From positions 1 through 64,000 of IMG/VR virus record IMGVR_UViG_3300000115_000010: 64,000 nt of DNA. The stretch is one strand, 5' to 3'. The stretch is from a virus. The translations under genes and the position numbers were made by a program. The notes under the pieces are model-generated. The model had not been told where the DNA came from, searched no databases, and saw nothing but the letters and a program-made list of their open reading frames with translations. Position 1 is the first letter of the stretch; each line of letters begins with the position of its first letter. Below are positions 4,507 through 58,397 of the stretch, in pieces.

Positions 4507-4968
4507 ATGGGAGCAAAATTAGCAGGTGTTATGTTTATAATACTGATTGCCGCAAGTGGTGTCGGTTACTGGTACTATAATGACACCCAGCAACGTATTG
4601 CAATCTTAAATGAAAATAATGCTAAACTAAACGTAGCAATAAATTTAAATGAAGAAACTATAACTTCTTTGGAATCAGATTACAGAAGAGTTAATGAAGA
4701 ACTAACAACTATTAATCAACAATTTGCTAATGTTCGGAAACAAAATAATAGATTAAATGAAAAACTTGCAACGATTGATCTTGGACTAGCGGCAGTTAAT
4801 AATCCCGATGGGATTGGCAGAGCAGTCAATAGAGGTACAGAAAATGCAGGAAGATGTTTCGAATTATTAAGTGGTGCTGATTTAAATGAAAAGGAAAAGG
4901 GAGCCACCAATGGCATACAATTTAACAAAGAGTGTCCTTGGCTTTGGCCTGGTAATGACACTCCTTAG
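4507..4968 (+). CDS. Inner-membrane spanin (Rz-like)
   Basis: One N-terminal transmembrane segment (about residues 7-24, VMFIILIAASGVGYWYY) is followed by a long coiled coil with heptad-like spacing (about residues 28-95), ending in a Pro/Trp tail. That is the usual form of an i-spanin, which spans the periplasm and helps fuse inner and outer membranes at lysis. The next gene encodes a lipoprotein overlapping by 59 nt in another frame, as in lambda Rz/Rz1. The call rests on architecture, not on sequence match. Confidence 0.65.
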   Translation: MGAKLAGVMFIILIAASGVGYWYYNDTQQRIAILNENNAKLNVAINLNEETITSLESDYRRVNEELTTINQQFANVRKQNNRLNEKLATIDLGLAAVNNPDGIGRAVNRGTENAGRCFELLSGADLNEKEKGATNGIQFNKECPWLWPGNDTP

Positions 4969-13804: not shown

Positions 13805-13896
13805 CTATGTCCAATAGTACTCATGAGAGGACTTATGCTGTACCCACAGCGTAGCGACTAGAACTCGCATAGGACTTCTTTTTAAGGAGAAAACAA

Positions 13897-14289
13897 ATGG
13901 GAAGACCACTACAGAAGAAGAATTTCGGTCCGCGAGCAGACGCTGCGGAAGCAGATGGCGCAGGCCAATGGGCACCAGCCGCATACACTGACTCACTATA
14001 TGGCGATGCCCATATAGTCAATCAAAAAGGTGCAAAGCGTTTTACAGTAGCAACTACTGGTCAACCAAACCAAGTATGTACACTAGTAGCAAGAATACCA
14101 AATGCGACTGGCGAAGTATCTATTAAAGTTAGAGATAGTGCTACACAAACTTACTTTGTAAGTAAGATTTCAGGTAGAACTTGCACACTTGTAGCAGATA
14201 CAGGAACACAGTTTTCAGATGGACAAAAAGTGCCTTGGAACCGTACCGGCGCTGTGGCCAACAAATCAGTTGTTATAGCTTTAGCATAA
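13897..14289 (+). CDS. Probable virion structural protein (130 aa)
   Basis: Starts MGRPLQKKNFGPRADA, an N-terminus of a kind I associate with small phage virion proteins (M-G-R-P-L-x-K-K). The rest is Thr/Val/Gly-rich and beta-like, with no catalytic motif. Late promoter upstream and strong terminator downstream make it a single-gene unit, again typical of an abundant virion component. Confidence 0.65.
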   Translation: MGRPLQKKNFGPRADAAEADGAGQWAPAAYTDSLYGDAHIVNQKGAKRFTVATTGQPNQVCTLVARIPNATGEVSIKVRDSATQTYFVSKISGRTCTLVADTGTQFSDGQKVPWNRTGAVANKSVVIALA

Positions 14290-44481: not shown

Positions 44482-45481
44482 AAAGTTAGGTCTAACCCAT
44501 TGGGATAATAAAACAGCGGGCGGGTATACACTATTTGCACCACAAACAGGAGGCGGACGTATACCACTCATTGACGATAGCGGTGAAGTAGTACACGAAT
44601 GGAACATGCCTGTTAGACCAGGCAGAGATGCAGTACTATTAGAAAACGGTAACTTGGGTTATAACGGAAGTCATAACACCAGTGTTGACCTTTATCCACC
44701 TTGGGATATTTGGCATGGTGGTCACTTTATGGAAGCTACAAAAGATAGTGAAATAGTTTGGGAATATGAAGATCCTTATGCACACCACGATGCACAATGG
44801 CTAGATGGCGGATTGTTATATGTTGCTGCCGCTGAATATAAAGACGGACGATTCAGTGACATTGTGCGTATGGTAAACCGTAAAGGTGATGTTGTATGGG
44901 AATGGTGTGCATGGGAACATATTACAGAAGAAGAGTTTCCAGTACACGAAGGTATGCCCGACAATCATTGGCCCATGATTAACGGAGTATGTCTATCTGG
45001 TCATACTATCTATTTAAGTTTGCGTAACACAAGTGGCATTATTGGAGTAGACAGAGCTACAAAAGAAGTTGTATGGAAAAAGCAGTGGCCCGATGTAGCA
45101 CAACAACATTGTCCTGTTGTTACCACAGCCGGTACAATGATTGCATTTTGTAATGGAAATATTAGGCCACCCGGGTTACATCACAGTAGGATTGTAGAAT
45201 TTGATTTAGCAACTAAAGAACAAATATGGAGTTATGTGGATGATATGCCTCCTAGTTTCTTTAGTCCTTATATGGGCAGTGTACAACGTTTATGGAATGG
45301 CAACACATTTATTTGTGAAAGTGCCTTTGGTAGATTGTTTGAAGTTACACCAGAAGGAGAAACAGTATGGGAATATGTTATCCCATGGTTTGAAGAATAC
45401 CCTGCACCACTAAACGAATTTATTACAGGAGCTCAAAACAGTTGCTTCAAAGCACATAGGTACAAAACATGGGAAATTTAG
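44462..45481 (+). CDS. Arylsulfotransferase-like beta-propeller protein (339 aa)
   Basis: I chose GTG 44462, 6 nt after GGAGG; an ATG at 44432 lies in the oxygenase gene. The product has repeated blades with Trp-rich edges (GEVVHEWNMPVRPGRDAVLL; DSEIVWEYEDPYAHHDAQWL; GDVVWEWCAWEHITEE). This is the arylsulfotransferase (ASST) pattern, also with central His residues. No signal peptide is visible, unusual for the periplasmic enzymes. Sulfate transfer is not proven. Overlaps purA by 13 nt. Confidence 0.7.
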   Translation: MTTIARRKLGLTHWDNKTAGGYTLFAPQTGGGRIPLIDDSGEVVHEWNMPVRPGRDAVLLENGNLGYNGSHNTSVDLYPPWDIWHGGHFMEATKDSEIVWEYEDPYAHHDAQWLDGGLLYVAAAEYKDGRFSDIVRMVNRKGDVVWEWCAWEHITEEEFPVHEGMPDNHWPMINGVCLSGHTIYLSLRNTSGIIGVDRATKEVVWKKQWPDVAQQHCPVVTTAGTMIAFCNGNIRPPGLHHSRIVEFDLATKEQIWSYVDDMPPSFFSPYMGSVQRLWNGNTFICESAFGRLFEVTPEGETVWEYVIPWFEEYPAPLNEFITGAQNSCFKAHRYKTWEI

Positions 45482-46674
45482 TAGTAGTAGGAACACAATG
45501 GGGCGATGAGGGTAAAGGCAAAGTAGTTGATCTACTAGCAGAACACGCTGATATTATTGTACGTTTCCAAGGCGGACACAATGCAGGACACACATTAGTA
45601 ATAGAAGATAAAGTTTTTAAACTTAGTTTACTGCCCAGCGGTATAGTAAGACAAGACAAAGTTTCAGTTATTGGTAACGGTGTTGTATTGAATCCTTGGA
45701 AACTATTAGAAGAGATTGAACTAGTACAGTCACAAGGCGTAAATATTGATCCTAGTAGATTAATGATTGCAGAAAACACTCCGCTAATTTTACCCTATCA
45801 CCAAGCATTAGATCAGTCAAGAGAAGAAGTAACTGATAAAAAAATCGGTACTACTGGCAGAGGCATCGGGCCTGCATACGAAGATAAAGCAGGAAGACGT
45901 GCAATTAAAGTAGGAGATCTTAGAGATGATGAACTACTCAAACATAGACTAGCAATAGCCGCAGAGTATCACAACTTTGACCAACAACAGTTGTTTAATC
46001 AGCTAGCACATATCAAAGAACATGTATTACAATATGTAAATGATGTACCACTTTATCTAAATCAAAAGACTGACTTAGGATTTAATATATTATTCGAAGG
46101 CGCACAAGGAAGCATGCTAGATGTAGACTTTGGCACTTATCCTTATGTAACAAGTTCAAACACACTAGCAGGCATGGCTAGTATAGGATCAGGTGTACCA
46201 CATAATAAAATACCAAATGTAATTGGTATAACAAAAGCATACACAACTAGAGTAGGTGAAGGTCCTATGACTACTGAACTGTTTGATGAAGTTGGAGAGC
46301 ATCTAGCAAATGTTGGTAAGGAAAAAGGCACAGTAACAGGCAGAGACAGAAGATGCGGCTGGTTTGACGCACCACAGGTTCGTAAGACTTGTATGTTAAA
46401 TGGTGTTACTGGCATAGCATTAATGAAAATAGACGTACTCGATAAACTCGAGACTATTAAGATTTGTACTGACGTACACAACGGAATACCAGTGTATGAA
46501 GAGCTACCTGGTTGGTGTACTAGTACAATAGGTATAACTGATTATTCAGATTTACCAAGACTTGCTCAAGAGTATATTAACCGTATTGAGCAATTAACAC
46601 AAACCGAAGTAGTTTTGATATCAACTGGACCAGAAAGAGATCAAACTATTTTATTACAAGATTCTTTCTTTTAG
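45469..46674 (+). CDS. purA: Adenylosuccinate synthetase
   Basis: A 401-aa protein with TQWGDEGKGK at residues 9-18 (catalytic Asp13), GGHNAGHTL (catalytic His41) and TTGRGIGPAYEDKAGRRA. Both residues that define IMP-to-adenylosuccinate synthesis are present, so it is PurA and not the PurZ variant that supports diaminopurine genomes, where the Asp is replaced. It is about 30 residues shorter than E. coli PurA. It boosts AMP supply for replication in an AT-rich phage. Confidence 0.92.
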   Translation: MGNLVVVGTQWGDEGKGKVVDLLAEHADIIVRFQGGHNAGHTLVIEDKVFKLSLLPSGIVRQDKVSVIGNGVVLNPWKLLEEIELVQSQGVNIDPSRLMIAENTPLILPYHQALDQSREEVTDKKIGTTGRGIGPAYEDKAGRRAIKVGDLRDDELLKHRLAIAAEYHNFDQQQLFNQLAHIKEHVLQYVNDVPLYLNQKTDLGFNILFEGAQGSMLDVDFGTYPYVTSSNTLAGMASIGSGVPHNKIPNVIGITKAYTTRVGEGPMTTELFDEVGEHLANVGKEKGTVTGRDRRCGWFDAPQVRKTCMLNGVTGIALMKIDVLDKLETIKICTDVHNGIPVYEELPGWCTSTIGITDYSDLPRLAQEYINRIEQLTQTEVVLISTGPERDQTILLQDSFF

Positions 46675-46708: not shown

Positions 46709-47329
46709 ATGTTAGGATTTTTTAAAGATATTGACAGAAGCATGTTGCTAAAACTAGTAGCACTACATGTAATTGTTATCGTAGTAAGTAACGCACTAGT
46801 GAGTATTCCAGTAGAAATTTTTGGAATTAAACTTACCTGGGCTGCATTTACATTTCCGTTGGTTGTGCTAGCAACTGACTTAACAGTACGAATGTTAGGT
46901 AAAAACATTGCACGTTCAACAATTGCGGCAGCTTATCCGTTGGCAATTATTGGATCAATTTTAGTTGTAATGGCGGAGGGTGCGCCAAGTAGTGTAGCAA
47001 TGCGTATTGGTTTAGCCAGTGCAACAGCGTATGCAGTTGGCACAATGTTGGATGTATATGTATTTCAATACCTACGTGAAAACTTTTTGAAGCATTGGTG
47101 GATTGCGCCAGCGGTATCAACTGTGGCAGCAAACATTATTGACACATACACATTCTTTTGGGTTGCGTTCAACAACAGTGCAGACGAATATATGGCTGCA
47201 AACTGGGTAGAGATCGCAGGATCACAAGTTGTGATTAAGATTGCAGTAGGACTTATTATCTTCCTACCAGCATACGGTGTGCTATTACGTTACTTAAATG
47301 GTAAACTTTCAGAAGAAGACGCCGAATAA
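46709..47329 (+). CDS. YhhQ/VUT-family queuosine-precursor transporter
   Basis: The 206-aa protein has about six hydrophobic segments and the family pattern TFPLVVLATDLTVRMLG, then GTMLDVYVFQYLRENF, WWIAPAVSTVAANIIDTYTF and FLPAYGVLLRY. E. coli YhhQ imports 7-cyano-7-deazaguanine and 7-aminomethyl-7-deazaguanine. Its presence beside a TGT-like enzyme in this genome suggests that the phage can also take up the base. Last gene of the importer operon, followed by a terminator. Confidence 0.85.
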   Translation: MLGFFKDIDRSMLLKLVALHVIVIVVSNALVSIPVEIFGIKLTWAAFTFPLVVLATDLTVRMLGKNIARSTIAAAYPLAIIGSILVVMAEGAPSSVAMRIGLASATAYAVGTMLDVYVFQYLRENFLKHWWIAPAVSTVAANIIDTYTFFWVAFNNSADEYMAANWVEIAGSQVVIKIAVGLIIFLPAYGVLLRYLNGKLSEEDAE

Positions 47330-48285: not shown

Positions 48286-48978
48286 ATGTATTTTATCAGT
48301 GCGCCATTTGGCAATTATTTACAGTACACAAACTTTCTAAGTGGCAAACCAATAGTCAGTGTTACTGGAACATTTACGGTGAAGCCACGTCCTGGACTAG
48401 CAAAACAAATTATAAAAACACTTAGGTATACTAGAACAGGCTGGCGCAACAAACTAGGTTTGCGTAACCCAGGAATATTTAAGGGGTTGGACAACACTGC
48501 ACCACACAATGTAATGAGTATTGCTAGTTTGGAACCAAATGATTGGCGTATACTATATGAAATAGTGCCCAAGCATCAGAATGTAGAACTTAACATAAGT
48601 TGCCCAAATGTAGATGAACATCCAGACTTAACTAAAGCATTTGCAAAAGATCAACGCTTCTGGTGCATTGTAAAAGTACCACCAACTATAACAAACAAAC
48701 AGATTGACAAAATAGTTAAACTAGGCTATAATCAAATACATGCAAGTAATACTGTTCCAACACAAAAAGGTGGACTTAGTGGTGATGTAATTGTACCACA
48801 CACTTTGAGAATACTAGAATACATAAAAAGTACACACCCTCATGTTACGGTTATTGCAGGTGGCGGAGTAAAAAATAAAGCTAGTGTTGATAGATATATT
48901 AACGCTGGTGCAGATCATATTAGTATAGGCAGTGTATGTTTTACTCCTTGGCGGATTAAAGGAATTATAAATGATTAA
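48286..48978 (+). CDS. Dihydroorotate-dehydrogenase-like flavoprotein (230 aa)
   Basis: A short TIM-barrel with the DHODH motifs: VELNISCPNVDEHPDL (N-x-S-C-P-N, about residues 102-117), CIVKVPPTITN (K-x-x-P), IHASNTVPTQKGGLSG and VIAGGGVKNKASVDRYINAG near the end for the FMN phosphate. It is about 70 residues shorter than class 1 enzymes, mainly at the N-terminus. It probably oxidises dihydroorotate or a similar ring and is coupled to a PRTase gene. Confidence 0.75.
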   Translation: MYFISAPFGNYLQYTNFLSGKPIVSVTGTFTVKPRPGLAKQIIKTLRYTRTGWRNKLGLRNPGIFKGLDNTAPHNVMSIASLEPNDWRILYEIVPKHQNVELNISCPNVDEHPDLTKAFAKDQRFWCIVKVPPTITNKQIDKIVKLGYNQIHASNTVPTQKGGLSGDVIVPHTLRILEYIKSTHPHVTVIAGGGVKNKASVDRYINAGADHISIGSVCFTPWRIKGIIND

Positions 48979-49531
48979 GAAACATTATTATAGCTGGACT
49001 GACATTGAACGTATGTGTGTAAGCATTGTTAATCAAATGTATGCTGACAACTGGCGTCCTGATTACATTGTAGGACTTACACGCGGCGGCAATGTACCTG
49101 CTACTATTATTAGTAATATGACTGGCATACGTTGTGAAGCACTTAAAGTAAGTTTGCGTGACGATGAAGTAGGTCCCGAAAGTAATCTTTGGATGTCAGA
49201 AGATGCATTTGGTTATAACGATTCTGAAAAAACTGGAATCACTGGCGCACGTTGGGATATTAAACTTCGTAAGAATATTCTTATTGTAGATGATATCAAT
49301 GATACAGGTGCAACATTCAATTGGATTATAAAAGATTGGCAAGCAAGCTGTTTTCCTGGAGAAGATAATGGTTGGAATAGTGTATGGAACAATAATGTTC
49401 GATTTGCCACATTAACAGACAATTTGGCTAGTGAATTTACAGAGCATTGTGCTTACACATGTCACGAAATTAATAAAGCAGAACAAGATGTTTGGCTAGT
49501 TTATCCTTGGGAAAACGTAGGAGAATATTAA
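48971..49531 (+). CDS. Phosphoribosyltransferase (186 aa)
   Basis: YIVGLTRGGNVPATIISN near residues 36-53 and the PRPP loop NILIVDDINDTGATFNWI near 98-115 are the type I PRTase signature (two acidic residues then D-T-G-x-T). The hood region does not show whether it uses xanthine, hypoxanthine or orotate. It overlaps the DHODH-like gene by 8 nt. The second PRTase is at 53768. Confidence 0.82.
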   Translation: MIKKHYYSWTDIERMCVSIVNQMYADNWRPDYIVGLTRGGNVPATIISNMTGIRCEALKVSLRDDEVGPESNLWMSEDAFGYNDSEKTGITGARWDIKLRKNILIVDDINDTGATFNWIIKDWQASCFPGEDNGWNSVWNNNVRFATLTDNLASEFTEHCAYTCHEINKAEQDVWLVYPWENVGEY

Positions 49532-51048: not shown

Positions 51049-51945
51049 ATGAAGTTAAGATATAGCGAAGCATTCTACAGTGTACAAGGCGAAGGCAAGT
51101 TTGTAGGAGTACCTAGTGTATTCCTGCGTACATTTGGTTGTAACTTTCGTTGCATGAACTTTGGACTTGATAGAAGCGAGCCAATGCGTGACGTAAAACA
51201 AAAACAAGGTGTAATACATAACGAAGAAGTACAAGGTCTATTAGACAATAAAGTACATGAAACTACAGAAGTATTTACAGACTTGCCCATTATACACACA
51301 GGCTGTGATACATATGCAAGTATCTATCCAGAGTTTAAACACTTTAACAAGCAAGCTACAGTTGACGAAGTTGTAGAGCATTTAATTAGTTTACTGCCAG
51401 AAGGCAAGTGGACTTGTGATAACGGTCAAGACATACATTTGATAATGACCGGAGGTGAACCGTTGTTGGCGTGGCAACGACTGTACATAGAATTATTTGA
51501 ACATCCACGTATGCAGGATCTAAAAAATGTTACATTTGAAACAAATACTACACAATTTCTCAAAGACGATCTCTTTGACTATCTCAACAACAACGACAGA
51601 ATTACTGTCACATGGTCATGTTCCCCGAAACTTAGTGTTAGTGGAGAACCTTGGGATACTGCTATTAAACCTAAAGTTGCTCATGAGTATAGTCTTGTGG
51701 ACGGCAGTGACTTGTATCTCAAGTTTGTTGTCGCTGATCGTATGGACATTGAAGAAGCTGAGCGAGCTGTTGAAGAATATCGTGCTGAAGGTTTGGAATG
51801 CCCTGTGTACCTTATGCCATTGGGTGGTAGGTCTGAAGAGTACAATCTTAACGTCCAAGAAGTTGCAAACATCTGCATGGAAAAAGGGTGGCGTTTTACC
51901 CCAAGACTTCACATTTCACTCTTCGGAAATGCGTGGGGCACTTAA
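51049..51945 (+). CDS. queE: 7-carboxy-7-deazaguanine synthase (radical SAM)
   Basis: The 298-aa protein starts SEAFYSVQGEGKFVGVPSVF (QueE: F-x-S-x-Q-G-E-G-x-x-x-G-x-P). The Fe-S motif begins TFGCNFRC (Cys31, Cys35), but the third Cys appears only in TGCDTYAS (Cys86), where canonical QueE reads W-C-D-T; about 48 residues are inserted within C-x3-C-x2-C. MTGGEPLL follows as the SAM-binding GGEP. It turns carboxytetrahydropterin into CDG. Confidence 0.85.
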   Translation: MKLRYSEAFYSVQGEGKFVGVPSVFLRTFGCNFRCMNFGLDRSEPMRDVKQKQGVIHNEEVQGLLDNKVHETTEVFTDLPIIHTGCDTYASIYPEFKHFNKQATVDEVVEHLISLLPEGKWTCDNGQDIHLIMTGGEPLLAWQRLYIELFEHPRMQDLKNVTFETNTTQFLKDDLFDYLNNNDRITVTWSCSPKLSVSGEPWDTAIKPKVAHEYSLVDGSDLYLKFVVADRMDIEEAERAVEEYRAEGLECPVYLMPLGGRSEEYNLNVQEVANICMEKGWRFTPRLHISLFGNAWGT

Positions 51946-52371: not shown

Positions 52372-53463
52372 ATGAACAACTATATCTTTACAAGCGAAAG
52401 CGTTAGTGATGGACACCCAGATAAAATAGCAGATCAAATCAGTGATGCACTAGTAGATGCCGGACTAACCAATGGCGACGAAACAACTCGTGTAGCTATT
52501 GAAACACTTGTAACCACTAATCATGTAACGTTAGCGGGCGAAGTAAAAAACTTTAACGTAAGCAAAGACAAGGTAAAACAAATCGTTCGTGACAAAGTTC
52601 GTGAGATTGGGTATGAACAAGAAGGATTTCATTGGGATAACTTGCGTATCTATAATGAGATTCACTCACAAAGTGGAGACATTGGCTTAGGCACAGATGA
52701 CTTTGGTGCAGGTGATCAAGGACTTATGTTTGGATATGCATGTAATCATACAGACAGTATGATGCCAGCACCTATCCATTACAGTCACGAGATTCTAAAG
52801 AACTTGAAAAGCAAACGTGGTGCTATACTAGGTCCAGATGCCAAGAGTCAAGTAAGCGTAGAGTACTATGGTGCCAGACGTGATGGTGTAATCAAGCGTG
52901 TGGACCAAGTTGTGATAAGTACACAACATACACAAGGCAATGTGGAAGAAGCAAGGCATTTGTGTAAACTTTCAGCAATGGAAGAACTTGGAGATTTAGT
53001 AGATGACAACACTATATGGCATCTTAATCCTACAGGTAATTTTGTTATTGGTGGTCCTGACGGTGATGCTGGTGTCACAGGAAGAAAGATTATCGTGGAC
53101 ACTTATGGCGGTTTCGCTCCTCATGGTGGCGGTGCTTTTAGTGGTAAGGATCCTACTAAAGTCGACCGCTCTGCAGCCTATGTGGCTCGTTGGCTTGCTA
53201 AAAATGTTGTAGCAGATAATATGGCGGACTGGTGTAATATCCAATTAAGTTATGCTATTGGTGTTAAAAAACCCACCAGCATTTATGTTGATAGTAACGG
53301 ACACAATGCTAGTATTGCCAAGTTTATCGAACGTGAAATTGATCTAACACCCAAAGGAATTATTGATAGATTTGATTTGTTTAACTTTACTAAGTACAGT
53401 GAAAATTGTGTATATGGACACTTTGGAAATAAAGATGTACCTTGGGAGAAAATTGGGTGGTAA
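52372..53463 (+). CDS. metK: S-adenosylmethionine synthetase
   Basis: A 363-aa MetK: FTSESVSDGHPDKIADQISD (residues about 6-25, with the catalytic GHPDK), GAGDQGLMFGYACNHTD, the P-loop-like GGGAFSGKDPTKVDRSAAY and a conserved C-terminal domain. Slightly shorter than the about 384-aa bacterial form but with all active-site motifs. It supplies SAM, needed by QueE and the methyltransferase at 58459. Transcribed with queE from the strong promoter at 50990. Confidence 0.93.
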   Translation: MNNYIFTSESVSDGHPDKIADQISDALVDAGLTNGDETTRVAIETLVTTNHVTLAGEVKNFNVSKDKVKQIVRDKVREIGYEQEGFHWDNLRIYNEIHSQSGDIGLGTDDFGAGDQGLMFGYACNHTDSMMPAPIHYSHEILKNLKSKRGAILGPDAKSQVSVEYYGARRDGVIKRVDQVVISTQHTQGNVEEARHLCKLSAMEELGDLVDDNTIWHLNPTGNFVIGGPDGDAGVTGRKIIVDTYGGFAPHGGGAFSGKDPTKVDRSAAYVARWLAKNVVADNMADWCNIQLSYAIGVKKPTSIYVDSNGHNASIAKFIEREIDLTPKGIIDRFDLFNFTKYSENCVYGHFGNKDVPWEKIGW

Positions 53464-53768
53464 AGAAAATAATAACTGAAGAAATAGTCAGAGAAGCATT
53501 ACTAAACGTATATGATCCAGAAGTTAGTCTTAGTGTACAAGAGCTAGGATTAATTTATGAAGTAAAAATTAACGGACAAGAAGTTTACATTAAGCATACA
53601 TTGACAAGTATGATGTGTCCGTTTGCAGATGAAATTTGTCAAGGTATTGAAGAAGCAGTTGGTGAAATTTCAGGTGTTGAATCAGTTAAAAGAGAACTAG
53701 TATTTGAACCACCATTTAGTATAGAAATGGTACCAGAAGATACACGAATGATGATGGGATGGTATTAA
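53457..53768 (+). CDS. SufT/MIP18-family Fe-S assembly protein
   Basis: I chose GTG 53457, 8 nt after GGGAG; a TTG at 53442 is possible. The 103-aa protein has LLNVYDPEVSLSVQELGLIY (the N-V-x-D-P-E-x-x-x-x-x-x-L-G-L-I-Y signature), IKHTLTSMMCPFADEIC with the reactive Cys, and FEPPFSIEMVPEDTRMMMGW. The family (SufT, PaaD, MIP18) helps mature Fe-S proteins. QueE or the host may be the client. Confidence 0.82.
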   Translation: MVKKIITEEIVREALLNVYDPEVSLSVQELGLIYEVKINGQEVYIKHTLTSMMCPFADEICQGIEEAVGEISGVESVKRELVFEPPFSIEMVPEDTRMMMGWY

Positions 53769-54169
53769 TGCCGTATTATACAACTGCAAACTTATTTGAA
53801 GTAGGTGACTTTATTAGTCACGCAGGAAACAAACTAGCATGGAAAATTGAGTGCGATGCTATACGCCCAGAGTGGTGGGACGGACTAGCACGTATGATCA
53901 TGGACTATCAAACAGAGCCTTTTAGTAAAGTAGTTGGTATTCCACGTGGCGGGTTGCCACTACAGTATGCAATGGAAAAATATGTAACACCTGGTGATCA
54001 TCCTTGGATGGTTGTAGATGATGTGTACACTACAGGCACAAGTTTTAGGGAGTTTTGCACAAGTAATCAAACAATGTTTGCATACAAGTGGTGTATTTTT
54101 GCACGTAAACCTATCGAAGGCGATGAGCCACATGACGTGAGAGCGTTGTTTACTATGCCCACTAAATAG
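53768..54169 (+). CDS. Phosphoribosyltransferase-like protein (133 aa)
   Basis: I chose ATG 53768, overlapping the previous stop (TAATG). It has VVGIPRGGLPLQYAM near residue 56 and the PRPP loop WMVVDDVYTTGTSFREF near 80-96. The protein is short, about two-thirds of a typical PRTase, and could be an orotate- or purine-type enzyme. With the DHODH-like gene it hints at pyrimidine synthesis, which is inference. Confidence 0.75.
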   Translation: MPYYTTANLFEVGDFISHAGNKLAWKIECDAIRPEWWDGLARMIMDYQTEPFSKVVGIPRGGLPLQYAMEKYVTPGDHPWMVVDDVYTTGTSFREFCTSNQTMFAYKWCIFARKPIEGDEPHDVRALFTMPTK

Positions 54170-54904: not shown

Positions 54905-55600
54905 ATGAAAAACATTAAAGACGTGCTGTTTATAGTACAAGCAAGGACTAATAGTCAACGTGTACCTGCAAAAATGACAAGAGAATTTGCAGGTACTTGT
55001 CTATTTGAGATATTCATTAATAAGATTAAACAAACCAATATACCAATGGAAAACTTTTACGCAAGTGTTTGCGATCAAGAACTTATTGATATATGTAACA
55101 AACATGAAGTTAACATATTTAATCGCAGTTTAGCGTCACGCAACAGCGAAAATGATTTAGTACAAATGTACGAATGGTGGGACAAATTTCCACAATACAA
55201 GTATGTTGTATTATTCAATCCATGTTTGCCATTCTTAAGCGTAAATACTATAAATCAGTTTGTAGATCAATATGTTAGTAGTGAGCACGATGGCCTTTTT
55301 GGTGTTATGTCTAAAAAGCAATACTATTGGAACACCCAAGGTGAAATGATCACACCCTGGCCAGCTGGTGTAACTATTATGAACACCAAAGTAGTAGAAC
55401 CTACACTTGAAGCTGCACATGCATTATACGCTGGAAGACTTGATCTAATTGGCCAAGAGCGTTGGATGGGTGACTTTACAAAAAACAATCCTGCACTATT
55501 TGAAATGAAAGAGTTCGAATGCCTTGATATTGATTACGAATGGCAATTCGAAGTATATACAACTTATTGGGAAAAACATTATGGTAAAAACAATAGCTGA
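54905..55600 (+). CDS. CMP-sugar synthetase-like nucleotidyltransferase (231 aa)
   Basis: It begins IKDVLFIVQARTNSQRVPAK, the nucleotide-binding loop of CMP-NeuAc/CMP-KDO synthetases (A-R-x-x-S-x-R-x-P-x-K), and has FNPCLPFLSVNTINQFVDQY later. 231 residues is the normal length. It overlaps the NeuB-like gene by 20 nt, the classic NeuA/NeuB pairing. The sugar could be a sialic- or legionaminic-like acid. Confidence 0.75.
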   Translation: MKNIKDVLFIVQARTNSQRVPAKMTREFAGTCLFEIFINKIKQTNIPMENFYASVCDQELIDICNKHEVNIFNRSLASRNSENDLVQMYEWWDKFPQYKYVVLFNPCLPFLSVNTINQFVDQYVSSEHDGLFGVMSKKQYYWNTQGEMITPWPAGVTIMNTKVVEPTLEAAHALYAGRLDLIGQERWMGDFTKNNPALFEMKEFECLDIDYEWQFEVYTTYWEKHYGKNNS

Positions 55601-56390
55601 AATTGGCATCAATCACAACGGTGATTTAGGGTTATGCAAAGAAATGATCACACTCGCAAAAAAAGCAGGTGCTGATTATGTAAAATTTCAAAAGCGTGAT
55701 CCGAATGTTTGTGTACCAGAAGATCAAAAGTCTAAATTAAGAGATACTCCTTGGGGAGAAATGACATACCTTGAGTACAAGCATCGTATTGAGTTCAATG
55801 ACGAGTTTTATGAAATTGATCAACATTGTAAAGAAGTAGGAATCAATTGGTTTGTAAGTGTATGGGATACAAATAGTATTCAGTTTATGGCTAATAATTT
55901 TGATACTAGTATAGTAAAAGTACCAAGTGCAAAAGCCACAGACACTGAAATTTTAAATATGTGCAATGCCATATATGGTACAGTAATAGTGAGTACTGGT
56001 ATGTGTACACTGGAAGAAATTGAACAAATTGTTAGATATGTAGACAAGAATAAACTTGTACTAATGCACACTGTAAGTACATATCCAGCAAAGACGGCGG
56101 ATCTACACATTGACACAATTGATTACTTAAAACGTTATCAGGTTCCTGTTGGATATAGTGGACATGAGTTGGGTAAATTTATTTCAGCTGCACTTGCTCT
56201 AAAGGATATTGACTGGCTAGAGCGTCATTTTACTAGTGACAAAACACTGTGGGGGACTGATCAAAGTTGTAGCTTAGAAACACACGAACTTAAAGAGCTC
56301 ATAGGAAATATGCAGATGCTCGAGAAGGCACGTGGTACTAGAGTTGGTGTATTAGAATGTGAAATCCCGATACTAGAGAAACTAAGGTAA
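55581..56390 (+). CDS. NeuB-like sialic/nonulosonic acid synthase (269 aa)
   Basis: I chose ATG 55581, in the end of the NeuA-like gene. Motifs: IAEIGINHNGDLGLCKEMI (residues 5-23), AGADYVKFQKRDP, KVPSAKATDTEILNM, STGMCTLEEIEQIV and VPVGYSGHELGKFISAALAL. These are NeuB catalytic-barrel motifs; the antifreeze-like C-terminal domain is absent (269 against about 345 residues). It would condense PEP with a hexosamine. Confidence 0.82.
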   Translation: MVKTIAEIGINHNGDLGLCKEMITLAKKAGADYVKFQKRDPNVCVPEDQKSKLRDTPWGEMTYLEYKHRIEFNDEFYEIDQHCKEVGINWFVSVWDTNSIQFMANNFDTSIVKVPSAKATDTEILNMCNAIYGTVIVSTGMCTLEEIEQIVRYVDKNKLVLMHTVSTYPAKTADLHIDTIDYLKRYQVPVGYSGHELGKFISAALALKDIDWLERHFTSDKTLWGTDQSCSLETHELKELIGNMQMLEKARGTRVGVLECEIPILEKLR

Positions 56391-56400
56391 TTTAGTATAA

Positions 56401-57327
56401 ATGCATTTAAATAGAGATCTGGCAATTTTAATTCCAGGATTAACTTACGGTGGTAGTAAAAGTTCTGAATTTTTATCACATTGTGAACAAATCACAAATC
56501 AACTAAACAAAGGTAACATTAATGATGTTACTTTTTATATTAGTACGTGGGATCATAAAAATAATAATACACATGATTTAATAACTGCAATTGAAAATTT
56601 TGGTTTTAAGTATAAATTAGATATAGAAACTTATCAAACATTTGATCAAATCATACATGAAATAATATATGAAGATATGCCAGAGTTTGGAAAGCTCTGG
56701 GACAAATGGCTACACGAAGATTTACTCAAAGCTTCACAATGTTCAGCAGTTGACTACAAGCGTAGACATCTATCGATATACTATAAATTTTATAAAGTGT
56801 TTTATATGACACAACACGAACACCTAATTGTTAGGACCAAATCAAACAACGGAGTCAATCTACCAATACTAGATCTATTAGATTCTCTAGAAGAAACATT
56901 AGAATGGAATCAAACAAACAATAAGTTTAAACAACCTAGTAATTTCAATAAAGAATTAGGAAACGCAAATGAACTTATTAAATATGATAACTGGATATCA
57001 TGTAACATTGATGGAGTGAGTAACAATGGTCTTGTAAAAGTCAATGAAAATGGAATATTTGGATTAAGACCTGTTTTTGAACACAGAATATTTAACTATA
57101 ATTCACCTAAGGAATTTATACTTAATGGTATAGCGTCTATATACTATCAGCAGTTCTTGGATAATTTTACAGCATCACAATTAAATAAAAATTTGTCAAT
57201 GCCGCCTATAGCTAGTGGTAGTTTAGTGTGGGGTCAATATTTTACTAGCAAACGTATACAGATACATCCAGTCTGGGCGTCTGCAAATCCGTTCTCTAAA
57301 GATGGACAGGTTCATAAAATGTACTAA
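56401..57327 (+). CDS. Unassigned, possibly glycosyltransferase-like protein (308 aa)
   Basis: It starts with a strand LAILIPGLTYGGSKSSEF, has DVTFYISTWDHKNNN and a later HEHLIVRTKSNNGVNLPI. The order of strands and the R-x-K/x-S-N stretch recall the 301-aa glycosyltransferase-like protein at 21054 (R-S-D), but acidic metal ligands are not evident. Its place after NeuA/NeuB-like genes supports sugar transfer. Confidence 0.45.
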   Translation: MHLNRDLAILIPGLTYGGSKSSEFLSHCEQITNQLNKGNINDVTFYISTWDHKNNNTHDLITAIENFGFKYKLDIETYQTFDQIIHEIIYEDMPEFGKLWDKWLHEDLLKASQCSAVDYKRRHLSIYYKFYKVFYMTQHEHLIVRTKSNNGVNLPILDLLDSLEETLEWNQTNNKFKQPSNFNKELGNANELIKYDNWISCNIDGVSNNGLVKVNENGIFGLRPVFEHRIFNYNSPKEFILNGIASIYYQQFLDNFTASQLNKNLSMPPIASGSLVWGQYFTSKRIQIHPVWASANPFSKDGQVHKMY

Positions 57328-57416: not shown

Positions 57417-58289
57417 ATGACGCAACTCATAAACCCACGAAAATTTACACAAACAGTTGGCCTTTTAAGGTCATTTTTTTTGGACAAAGGATTCTTGGAA
57501 GTCCACACCCAAAACAGACTAAGCATACTTGCCGCATGTGAAGATCCATTCAATGTAGCAACGTACAATTACGCAGGCAACACTTGGCCACTACCCCAAA
57601 CAGGCCAGATGTGGTTAGAACATGAATTATTAAGTAGCCCCGATAGTAAGGGGTTTTTTTGTGTCTCCACTTCCTATAGACAAGAGCCAAATGCTATACC
57701 AGGCAGACACGATATTATCTTCCCAATGTTTGAATTTGAAATGCCAGGCAGTGTAGATGATCTCAAAGCAATGGAAATTGAACTGTGTGAATACTTAGGC
57801 TTTGATGCACTAACAGAAAAAACATACAGAGAATGGCAACAGCATTGGGGTGTAAGTGCAGACACCGAAATGGATGACAGTCACGAAAAAGCTATGGAAA
57901 TGAACTTTGGTAGTTGTTTGATTACTGACTTTCCAGAACTAACATCACCTTTCTGGAACATGGCACGTAATGATGATGGCGAAACTGCCAAGAAGATGGA
58001 TGTTATACTAGGTGGTATGGAAACTATAGGCTCAGCAGAACGTAGTTGTGATGTTGATATGATGCGTGATACATTCCATAGTATTGTAGACGGAGAGTAC
58101 GCAGAGTTGTTATTTAAACTATTCGGTAAAGAACGTGTAGAAGCAGAACTAGAAGAGTTCCTCAAGTTTGACTTCTTCCAAAGAGTAGGCGGCGGAATTG
58201 GTATTACACGTATGATACCTGCACTAGAAAAAATAAATGCACTGAGTGAGCCAATGGGTATGATTCAACCCATGCTTCGTTCAGCATAA
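57417..58289 (+). CDS. Asparaginyl-tRNA-synthetase-core / archaeal-type asparagine synthetase-like enzyme (290 aa)
   Basis: A class II aminoacyl-tRNA-synthetase catalytic core without an N-terminal anticodon-binding domain. Motif 2: CVSTSYRQEPNAIPGRHDII (about residues 82-101; ATP-binding Arg and R-H), followed by MFEFEMPG. Motif 3: RVGGGIGITRM near 257-266. Archaeal asparagine synthetases of about 290 aa are such AsnRS relatives, making Asn from Asp and ammonia by adenylation. Here the gene ends 7 nt before a tRNA with an Asn anticodon. Synthesis of Asn, tRNA charging, or another amidation are all open. Confidence 0.75.
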   Translation: MTQLINPRKFTQTVGLLRSFFLDKGFLEVHTQNRLSILAACEDPFNVATYNYAGNTWPLPQTGQMWLEHELLSSPDSKGFFCVSTSYRQEPNAIPGRHDIIFPMFEFEMPGSVDDLKAMEIELCEYLGFDALTEKTYREWQQHWGVSADTEMDDSHEKAMEMNFGSCLITDFPELTSPFWNMARNDDGETAKKMDVILGGMETIGSAERSCDVDMMRDTFHSIVDGEYAELLFKLFGKERVEAELEEFLKFDFFQRVGGGIGITRMIPALEKINALSEPMGMIQPMLRSA

Positions 58290-58296
58290 AGTTTAT

Positions 58297-58397
58297 TCCA
58301 GGGTGGAGAAATTGGTAGACTCGCACGACTGTTTATCGTGTGATAGATGTTCCGCAAAATATTTATCGTGTAGGTTCGAGTCCTACCCCTGGAGCCA
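58297..58397 (+). tRNA. tRNA-Asn (GUU) with 29-nt variable region
   Basis: Acceptor TCCAGGG/CCCTGGA (58297-58303, 58387-58393), D arm GAG/CTC, anticodon stem CACGA/TCGTG with loop CTGTTTA and anticodon GTT at 58331-58333, T arm GTAGG/CCTAC with TTCGAGT, discriminator G and encoded CCA. Acceptor ends, G73 and anticodon match Asn. The variable region (58341-58369) is 29 nt and can form a 10-bp helix (GATAGATGTT/AATATTTATC with G-T pairs), as in class II tRNAs; normal tRNA-Asn has 5 nt. Base 37 is T, not a purine. Confidence 0.85.

Follow-up and report, generated by a model that had tools for sequence, protein, structure and literature searches.

A phage AsnRS-like catalytic core linked to a class II-armed tRNA-Asn, with cellular relatives in pyrimidine gene neighbourhoods

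A gene for an AsnRS-type catalytic core (hereafter the enzyme) and a tRNA-Asn with a class II variable arm lie side by side in the window, i.e. the whole 64,000-nucleotide stretch of viral DNA that was analysed (positions 1 to 64,000 of IMG/VR record IMGVR_UViG_3300000115_000010). The enzyme has the pocket residues of AsnRS, and its cellular relatives are found in pyrimidine (pyr) neighbourhoods, in genomes most of which have lost PyrB. In the reading that we prefer, with a probability of about 0.45, the enzyme is an Asn-binding core that replaces PyrB and PyrC, probably by making dihydroorotate, and its phage partner is a decoding-impaired tRNA-Asn that serves as an Asn carrier. The features are listed in Table 1.

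Table 1. Positions of the cassette and of the pyrimidine genes in the window
Feature	Positions	Strand	Description or evidence
Dihydroorotate dehydrogenase-like protein (PyrD)	48286..48978	+	Pfam PF01180, E 2.7e-12
Short phosphoribosyltransferase (PyrE-like)	53759..54169	+	35–48% identity, E 1e-19 to 8e-23
Enzyme gene	57417..58289	+	290 aa, class II aminoacyl-tRNA-synthetase-like catalytic core, AsnRS-type pocket
tRNA-Asn(GUU), class II variable arm, tRNA-Leu-like body, G73	58297..58394	+	Rfam RF00005, relatives, covariation
Anticodon GUU (58331–58333), then U37 (58334)	58331..58334	+	Sequence, relatives
Variable region, 29 nt, 10-bp helix	58341..58369	+	Folding, covariation
Encoded CCA end	58395..58397	+	Sequence

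AsnRS-type catalytic core without an anticodon-binding domain

The enzyme matches Pfam PF00152 (E 4e-16) and PHROG 29758 (E 4e-130), the latter annotated as of unknown function. Its AlphaFold (AF2) model has a mean pLDDT of 91.8, and the top fold matches of the model are AspRS/AsnRS. Both the Pfam match and the model describe a class II (D, K, N) core from which the anticodon-binding domain is absent, in agreement with the sequence-only reading of this region. The enzyme was aligned to AsnRS, AspRS and LysRS proteins taken from genomes, and the residue table from this alignment gives E42, Q64, E68, E106 and R209 as the pocket residues. The enzyme has the AsnRS-type (S/T)GQxxxE motif, E106 and R209, and the K and D of AspRS are absent; E106 is an AsnRS-type residue, at a position where the AspRS proteins in the alignment carry D. 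The pocket residues and the motif are invariant in phage and cellular members alike, and this AsnRS-type pocket suggests that the enzyme binds L-asparagine and ATP. The protein is acidic (pI 4.6, net charge −22), which is unusual among RNA-binding proteins.

The catalytic fold, class II motifs 2 and 3 and the Asn pocket are shared with AsnRS (class IIb, TIGR00457; PDB 2XGT, 1X54 and 9SH8). Unlike AsnRS, however, members of the enzyme family comprise only 267–290 aa and reach ∼33 bits where the cut-off is 343 (33.1 bits for the window enzyme; curated cut-off 342.6). Archaeal AS-AR and bacterial AsnA are likewise synthetase cores that lack an anticodon domain and have a metabolic function. An enzyme of this kind would make asparagine from Asp, ATP and NH3 for translation and pyrimidines, and the stand-alone AsnRS-like core, its weak relationship to AS-AR (E 0.002) and the link of Asn to a tRNA are what such a synthetase would predict. 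We give this idea little credence, since the enzyme is distant from AS-AR and AsnA in sequence, its profile is far nearer AsnRS (E 2e-13), it carries the AsnRS-type E106, and it is tied to the loss of PyrB, for which an asparagine synthetase would not substitute; moreover, AsnB is already present in 12 of 20 carrier genomes. Three stand-alone AsnRS-like proteins from DPANN archaea (L461, L462 and L463; 378–391 aa), with an SSQIYLE motif and scores under the AS-AR cut-off, may form a further core family that is as yet uncharacterised.

A tRNA-Asn with a class II variable arm

The stop codon of the enzyme gene lies 7 nt ahead of the 5′ end of the tRNA. The acceptor stem is UCCAGGG/CCCUGGA with discriminator G73; the 5′ part reads UCCAGGG-UG-GAG...CUC-G-CACGA-CUGUUUA-UCGUG up to the 29-nt variable region, which is followed by GUAGG-UUCGAGU-CCUAC, the 3′ strand of the acceptor stem and G73. 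ARAGORN and a whole-window Rfam scan both missed the tRNA; a search of a 301-nt stretch with relaxed filters matched the Rfam tRNA model RF00005 at 46 bits (gathering score 29), so the fold is accepted by a covariance model. The 10-bp helix of the variable region folds better than 200 of 200 shuffles. Across 45 relatives, double-sided changes were found in 20 of 30 base pairs of the tRNA, and none of 500 shuffles reached any of the covariation measures, with slid controls also far off. The three pairs at the base of the variable-arm helix show strong covariation, among the best in the tRNA. Every feature that had been read from the sequence (GUU, G73, the acceptor stem, U37, the length of the variable region and its helix) is thus borne out. 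Covariation rules out a chance fold or a misread intron. In the window tRNA, the variable arm and the 3′ arm of the anticodon stem have a 10-nt direct repeat in common; an origin by duplication was rejected, as the repeat is not retained in all relatives.

A class II arm is a feature of Leu, Ser and bacterial Tyr tRNAs and not of tRNA-Asn, which ordinarily has a variable loop of 4–5 nt and is identified by GUU and G73. The phage tRNA shares GUU, G73 and U1-A72 with ordinary tRNA-Asn(GUU) but differs from it in its class II arm of 12–38 nt, a Leu-type D arm, mostly U37 and a U33 that is sometimes lost. With tRNA-Leu it has in common the body and arm architecture, whereas the anticodon, U1-A72 and G73 in place of A73 set it apart. 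The family covariance model, when run on 20 cellular genomes, gave tRNA-Leu as the top class II matches; therefore, the tRNA body is of Leu type, and the acceptor end and anticodon are of Asn type. U1-A72 is a determinant for GatCAB amidation of Asp-tRNA-Asn (PMC9976931).

Distribution and linkage of the cassette

At least 80 viral loci were obtained in the first relative search, and three further queries led to 218 distinct proteins, mostly from phages, with eleven loci from genome assemblies. A GUU tRNA is located just downstream of the gene in at least 175 of the 218, usually after a gap of 4–14 nt; this is a lower bound, because members with a T-stem bulge or unusual arms were missed by the script. 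The sequence-only reading of a pair would have failed if relatives had carried the enzyme and an ordinary tRNA-Asn apart; in related phages the two are linked, with arms of at least 12 nt. GUU and G73 are present in all 175 paired tRNAs and U1-A72 in 174, and the variable region measures 12–38 nt in every one of them, with no loop of 4–5 nt. CCA is encoded in 94 of the 175 and is absent from the cyanophage-type members. In the closest relatives of the window (L001–L004 and L007) the same tRNA has a bulged T stem, perhaps a sign of early decay. Variable regions of roughly 38–40 nt, read by eye, occur in L311, L312 and L317, and unusually short ones in L307 and L318, with the 5′ end of the tRNA within the last codons of the gene.

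The cassette is present in Prochlorococcus phages P-SSM2, P-SSM5 and P-SSM7. The annotated tRNA-Asn of P-SSM2 (L082, NC_006883.2; 164094–164179) seems misplaced: ARAGORN puts it at locus positions 4813–4900 (approximately 162082–162169 of the record), directly behind the enzyme gene. The cyanophage enzyme gene is listed merely as 'tRNA ligase' (PMC3037559). The immediate neighbours in 152 loci fall into 78 upstream and 73 downstream clusters, many of them unrelated, so the enzyme gene and the tRNA travel as a unit. In a tree of 286 enzymes, all paired members are located in the viral part, outside nearly all cellular sequences; this part consists of two subclades (support 0.999 and 0.996), the union of which is weakly supported. 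Some 25 enzymes of the phage clade have no linked tRNA, which is therefore not strictly needed.

The sequence-only reading had also proposed a cognate synthetase–tRNA pair in which the enzyme reads the extra arm. Linkage to a class II-armed tRNA-Asn holds, but recognition of the arm is not supported. Enzymes that are 94–97% identical are found beside arms of 13 nt and of 29 nt, unrelated in sequence, so the enzyme does not appear to read the arm closely; recognition of arm sequence or arm length was rejected. In addition, cellular enzymes with the same motifs and 52–60% identity occur in genomes that have no such tRNA.

Anticodon loop and decoding

Position 37 is a pyrimidine in 158 of the 175 relatives (U in 157, C in one) and A in 17, and position 33 is U in 157 and another base in 18. 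Ordinary phage tRNAs of the same loci, by comparison, have a pyrimidine at position 37 in 0 of 69 cases and U33 in all 69. The window tRNA has U33, but combines it with U37. U33 and t6A37 matter for the decoding of the weak AAY codons, and loops with U37 or without U33 should read these codons poorly. On the other hand, an invariant GUU is also what decoding would demand, and U33 is retained in most of the tRNAs (157 of the 175); both count against a non-decoding role.

One explanation that retains decoding is that the tRNA resists defences, is charged by host enzymes and replaces host tRNA-Asn in translation, with the adjoining metabolic enzyme belonging to a shared early-infection supply. 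The full host identity set in combination with an abnormal loop would fit, and phage tRNAs that evade tRNA-targeting defences have been published (PMC10264068, PMC11555353). The tRNAs of PMC10264068 have loop changes in common with those described here, but the latter are also tied to one metabolic enzyme, and their body has switched class. We regard the replacement tRNA as improbable, because it leaves unexplained both the class II body and the near-exclusive adjacency of precisely this gene pair in dozens of gene neighbourhoods that are unrelated to one another. Escape from anticodon nucleases, as put forward in the sequence-only reading, is compatible with U37 and the loss of U33, yet it leaves the pyrimidine link described below unaccounted for.

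By analogy with GluQ-RS, the core might instead place Asn on a modified base of the GUU anticodon loop and not on the 3′ end. This would suit an enzyme without an anticodon domain, the invariant GUU and the queuosine-related genes of the window (QueE-like and Vut_1). The known TGT requires U33-G34-U35. As U33 is lost in 18 of the 175 tRNAs and the pyrimidine link would again be unaccounted for, we consider such a reaction very improbable.

Cellular relatives and the loss of PyrB

A genome scan identified 133 relatives of the enzyme, many of them in real chromosomes, with 52–60% identity and no adjacent tRNA. The carriers include an Aureispira isolate, Pasteurella atlantica (complete genome), Patescibacteria and Midichloriaceae. 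No class II tRNA-Asn was found by pattern search in 20 carrier genomes or by covariance model in two of them (G003 and G004), where all class II matches were Leu, Ser or Tyr. Canonical AsnRS is encoded in 13 of the 20 genomes alongside the enzyme, AsnB in 12 and GatB in 11. The three most frequent families among 120 neighbouring proteins are dihydroorotate (DHO) dehydrogenase (pyrD, 10), OMP decarboxylase (pyrF, 10) and a PyrE-like phosphoribosyltransferase (PRT; 9).

PyrB is above cut-off in 2 of the 20 carriers (G003 and G009, which thus have both proteins) and in 14 of 14 controls, although some carriers are draft MAGs, so its absence may in part reflect incompleteness, and Patescibacteria often have no pyrimidine synthesis anyway. 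The baseline for Bacteroidota is 144 of 148 genomes with PyrB above cut-off, as compared with one of six Bacteroidota carriers (Fisher p ∼1e-8, uncorrected for kinship); one carrier, G001, is the only one of the 148 without any PyrB match. PyrF is present in 17 of the 20 carriers, and PyrC (TIGR00857) is above cut-off in one and below it in six more. In P. atlantica (G002, NZ_CP074346.1, L127), the genome of which has no PyrB, a second pyrF and a short PRT lie behind the enzyme gene, suggesting a horizontally acquired pyrimidine cassette.

The pyrimidine link of the enzyme family is well supported. Neighbourhoods and PyrB loss point to a pyrimidine-pathway enzyme and not to a translation synthetase; the simplest reading of these genomes is that the cellular enzymes stand in for PyrB, and they probably replace PyrC as well. 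This bears on the explanation that we rank second, and hold to be unlikely, namely that enzyme and tRNA form a private AsnRS:tRNA-Asn pair used in translation. The core would aminoacylate its partner tRNA by way of the acceptor end (U1-A72, G73); host AsnRS and AspRS would be kept off by the class II body, and the odd loop would aid escape from tRNA-cutting defences. The tight and long-lived linkage, the AsnRS-type pocket, the invariant GUU and G73 and the near-invariant U1-A72 would all agree with such a pair, and there are known phage tRNAs whose loops resist nucleases (PMC10264068). However, homologs with the same motifs exist in cells without such a tRNA, the enzyme fails to track the length or sequence of the arm, the protein is very acidic, U37 and the lost U33 impair decoding, and neither the pyr neighbourhood nor the loss of PyrB would be expected.

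Pyrimidine genes in the phage

The window PRT is homologous to the PRT located beside the enzyme in Midichloriaceae, P. atlantica and a Rhodospirillaceae MAG, and has no match in named phage records. The dihydroorotate dehydrogenase (DHODH) of the window matches cellular pyrD from beside the enzyme (tblastn E 6e-27). In 155 phage loci with flanks of up to 10 kb, the same PRT family was found within 10 kb of the enzyme in 21 and not seen in the other 134, and PyrF was found near the enzyme in five; neither occurred in 80 control loci around gp23 (cyanophage query). The presence of DHODH and of the same PRT in the window, together with the enrichment of PRT and PyrF near the phage enzyme, argues that the phage enzyme very likely shares the pyrimidine role of the cellular members.

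The window also contains an Rfam freshwater-2 RNA (cis-regulatory; 13817–13899, 71.7 bits) that ends at an ATG, an adenylosuccinate synthetase (45469–46674), a Vut_1 (queuosine-precursor-type) transporter (46709–47329), a xanthine-PRT-like protein (48971–49531) whose gene overlaps that of DHODH, a QueE-like radical SAM protein (51049–51945) and a SAM synthetase (52372–53463). Just upstream of the cassette (54905–57327), genes for a CMP-sugar transferase-like protein (CTP_transf_3), a NeuB family synthase and an unknown 308-aa protein form a phage nonulosonic-acid module.

Proposed role of the enzyme and its tRNA

The reaction, the charging of the tRNA and the hand-over from tRNA to enzyme are the parts of the preferred reading that we infer. 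PyrB appears to be dispensable where an Asn-binding, ATP-using core is present, and both ring nitrogens are already contained in Asn; for these reasons, dihydroorotate is the likeliest product, from Asn, CO2 and ATP. The α-amino nitrogen of Asn would become N1, the side-chain amide nitrogen N3, and one CO2 would supply C2, after which PyrD, the PyrE-like transferase and PyrF would convert dihydroorotate to UMP. Ring closure by dethiobiotin synthetase is comparable chemistry.

Since the bacterial relatives seem to replace the first pyrimidine steps, the tRNA may be a metabolic carrier of Asn and not a normal decoder. The phage enzyme would have been joined long ago to a tRNA derived from tRNA-Leu, with the Asn identity set (GUU, G73 and U1-A72) and a decoding-impaired loop. 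A host route would charge this tRNA with Asn, either AsnRS or AspRS with GatCAB, for which U1-A72 is an amidation determinant. Where a host makes Asn on tRNA and by no other route, the tRNA could then act as a private carrier or source of Asn for the enzyme; the S. elongatus (Synechococcus) control genome has GatB and no AsnB. For small-molecule synthesis fed by an aminoacyl-tRNA, the Glu-tRNA-dependent C5 pathway of tetrapyrroles would be a precedent, with the difference that Asn and pyrimidines are concerned here, as a proposal only, and we know of no case in which an aminoacyl-tRNA feeds pyrimidine synthesis. The support is entirely computational and is limited by the use of draft genomes and of related, non-independent sequences. 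The strongest form of the proposal, a new Asn-based pyrimidine route that replaces PyrB and PyrC and in which a class II tRNA-Asn that does not decode is dedicated to carrying Asn in phages, is doubtful. Literature searches of open-licence papers returned no description of the enzyme–tRNA pair or of the enzyme's pyrimidine link.

In summary, a class II-armed tRNA-Asn breaks the textbook division of tRNAs, and it does so in hundreds of marine phages, including cultured Prochlorococcus phages. The enzyme family is a concrete candidate for the missing first pyrimidine steps in bacteria without PyrB. If the tRNA does feed the enzyme, metabolism would be using aminoacyl-tRNA in a new way, and there would be a new reason for phages to carry tRNAs.
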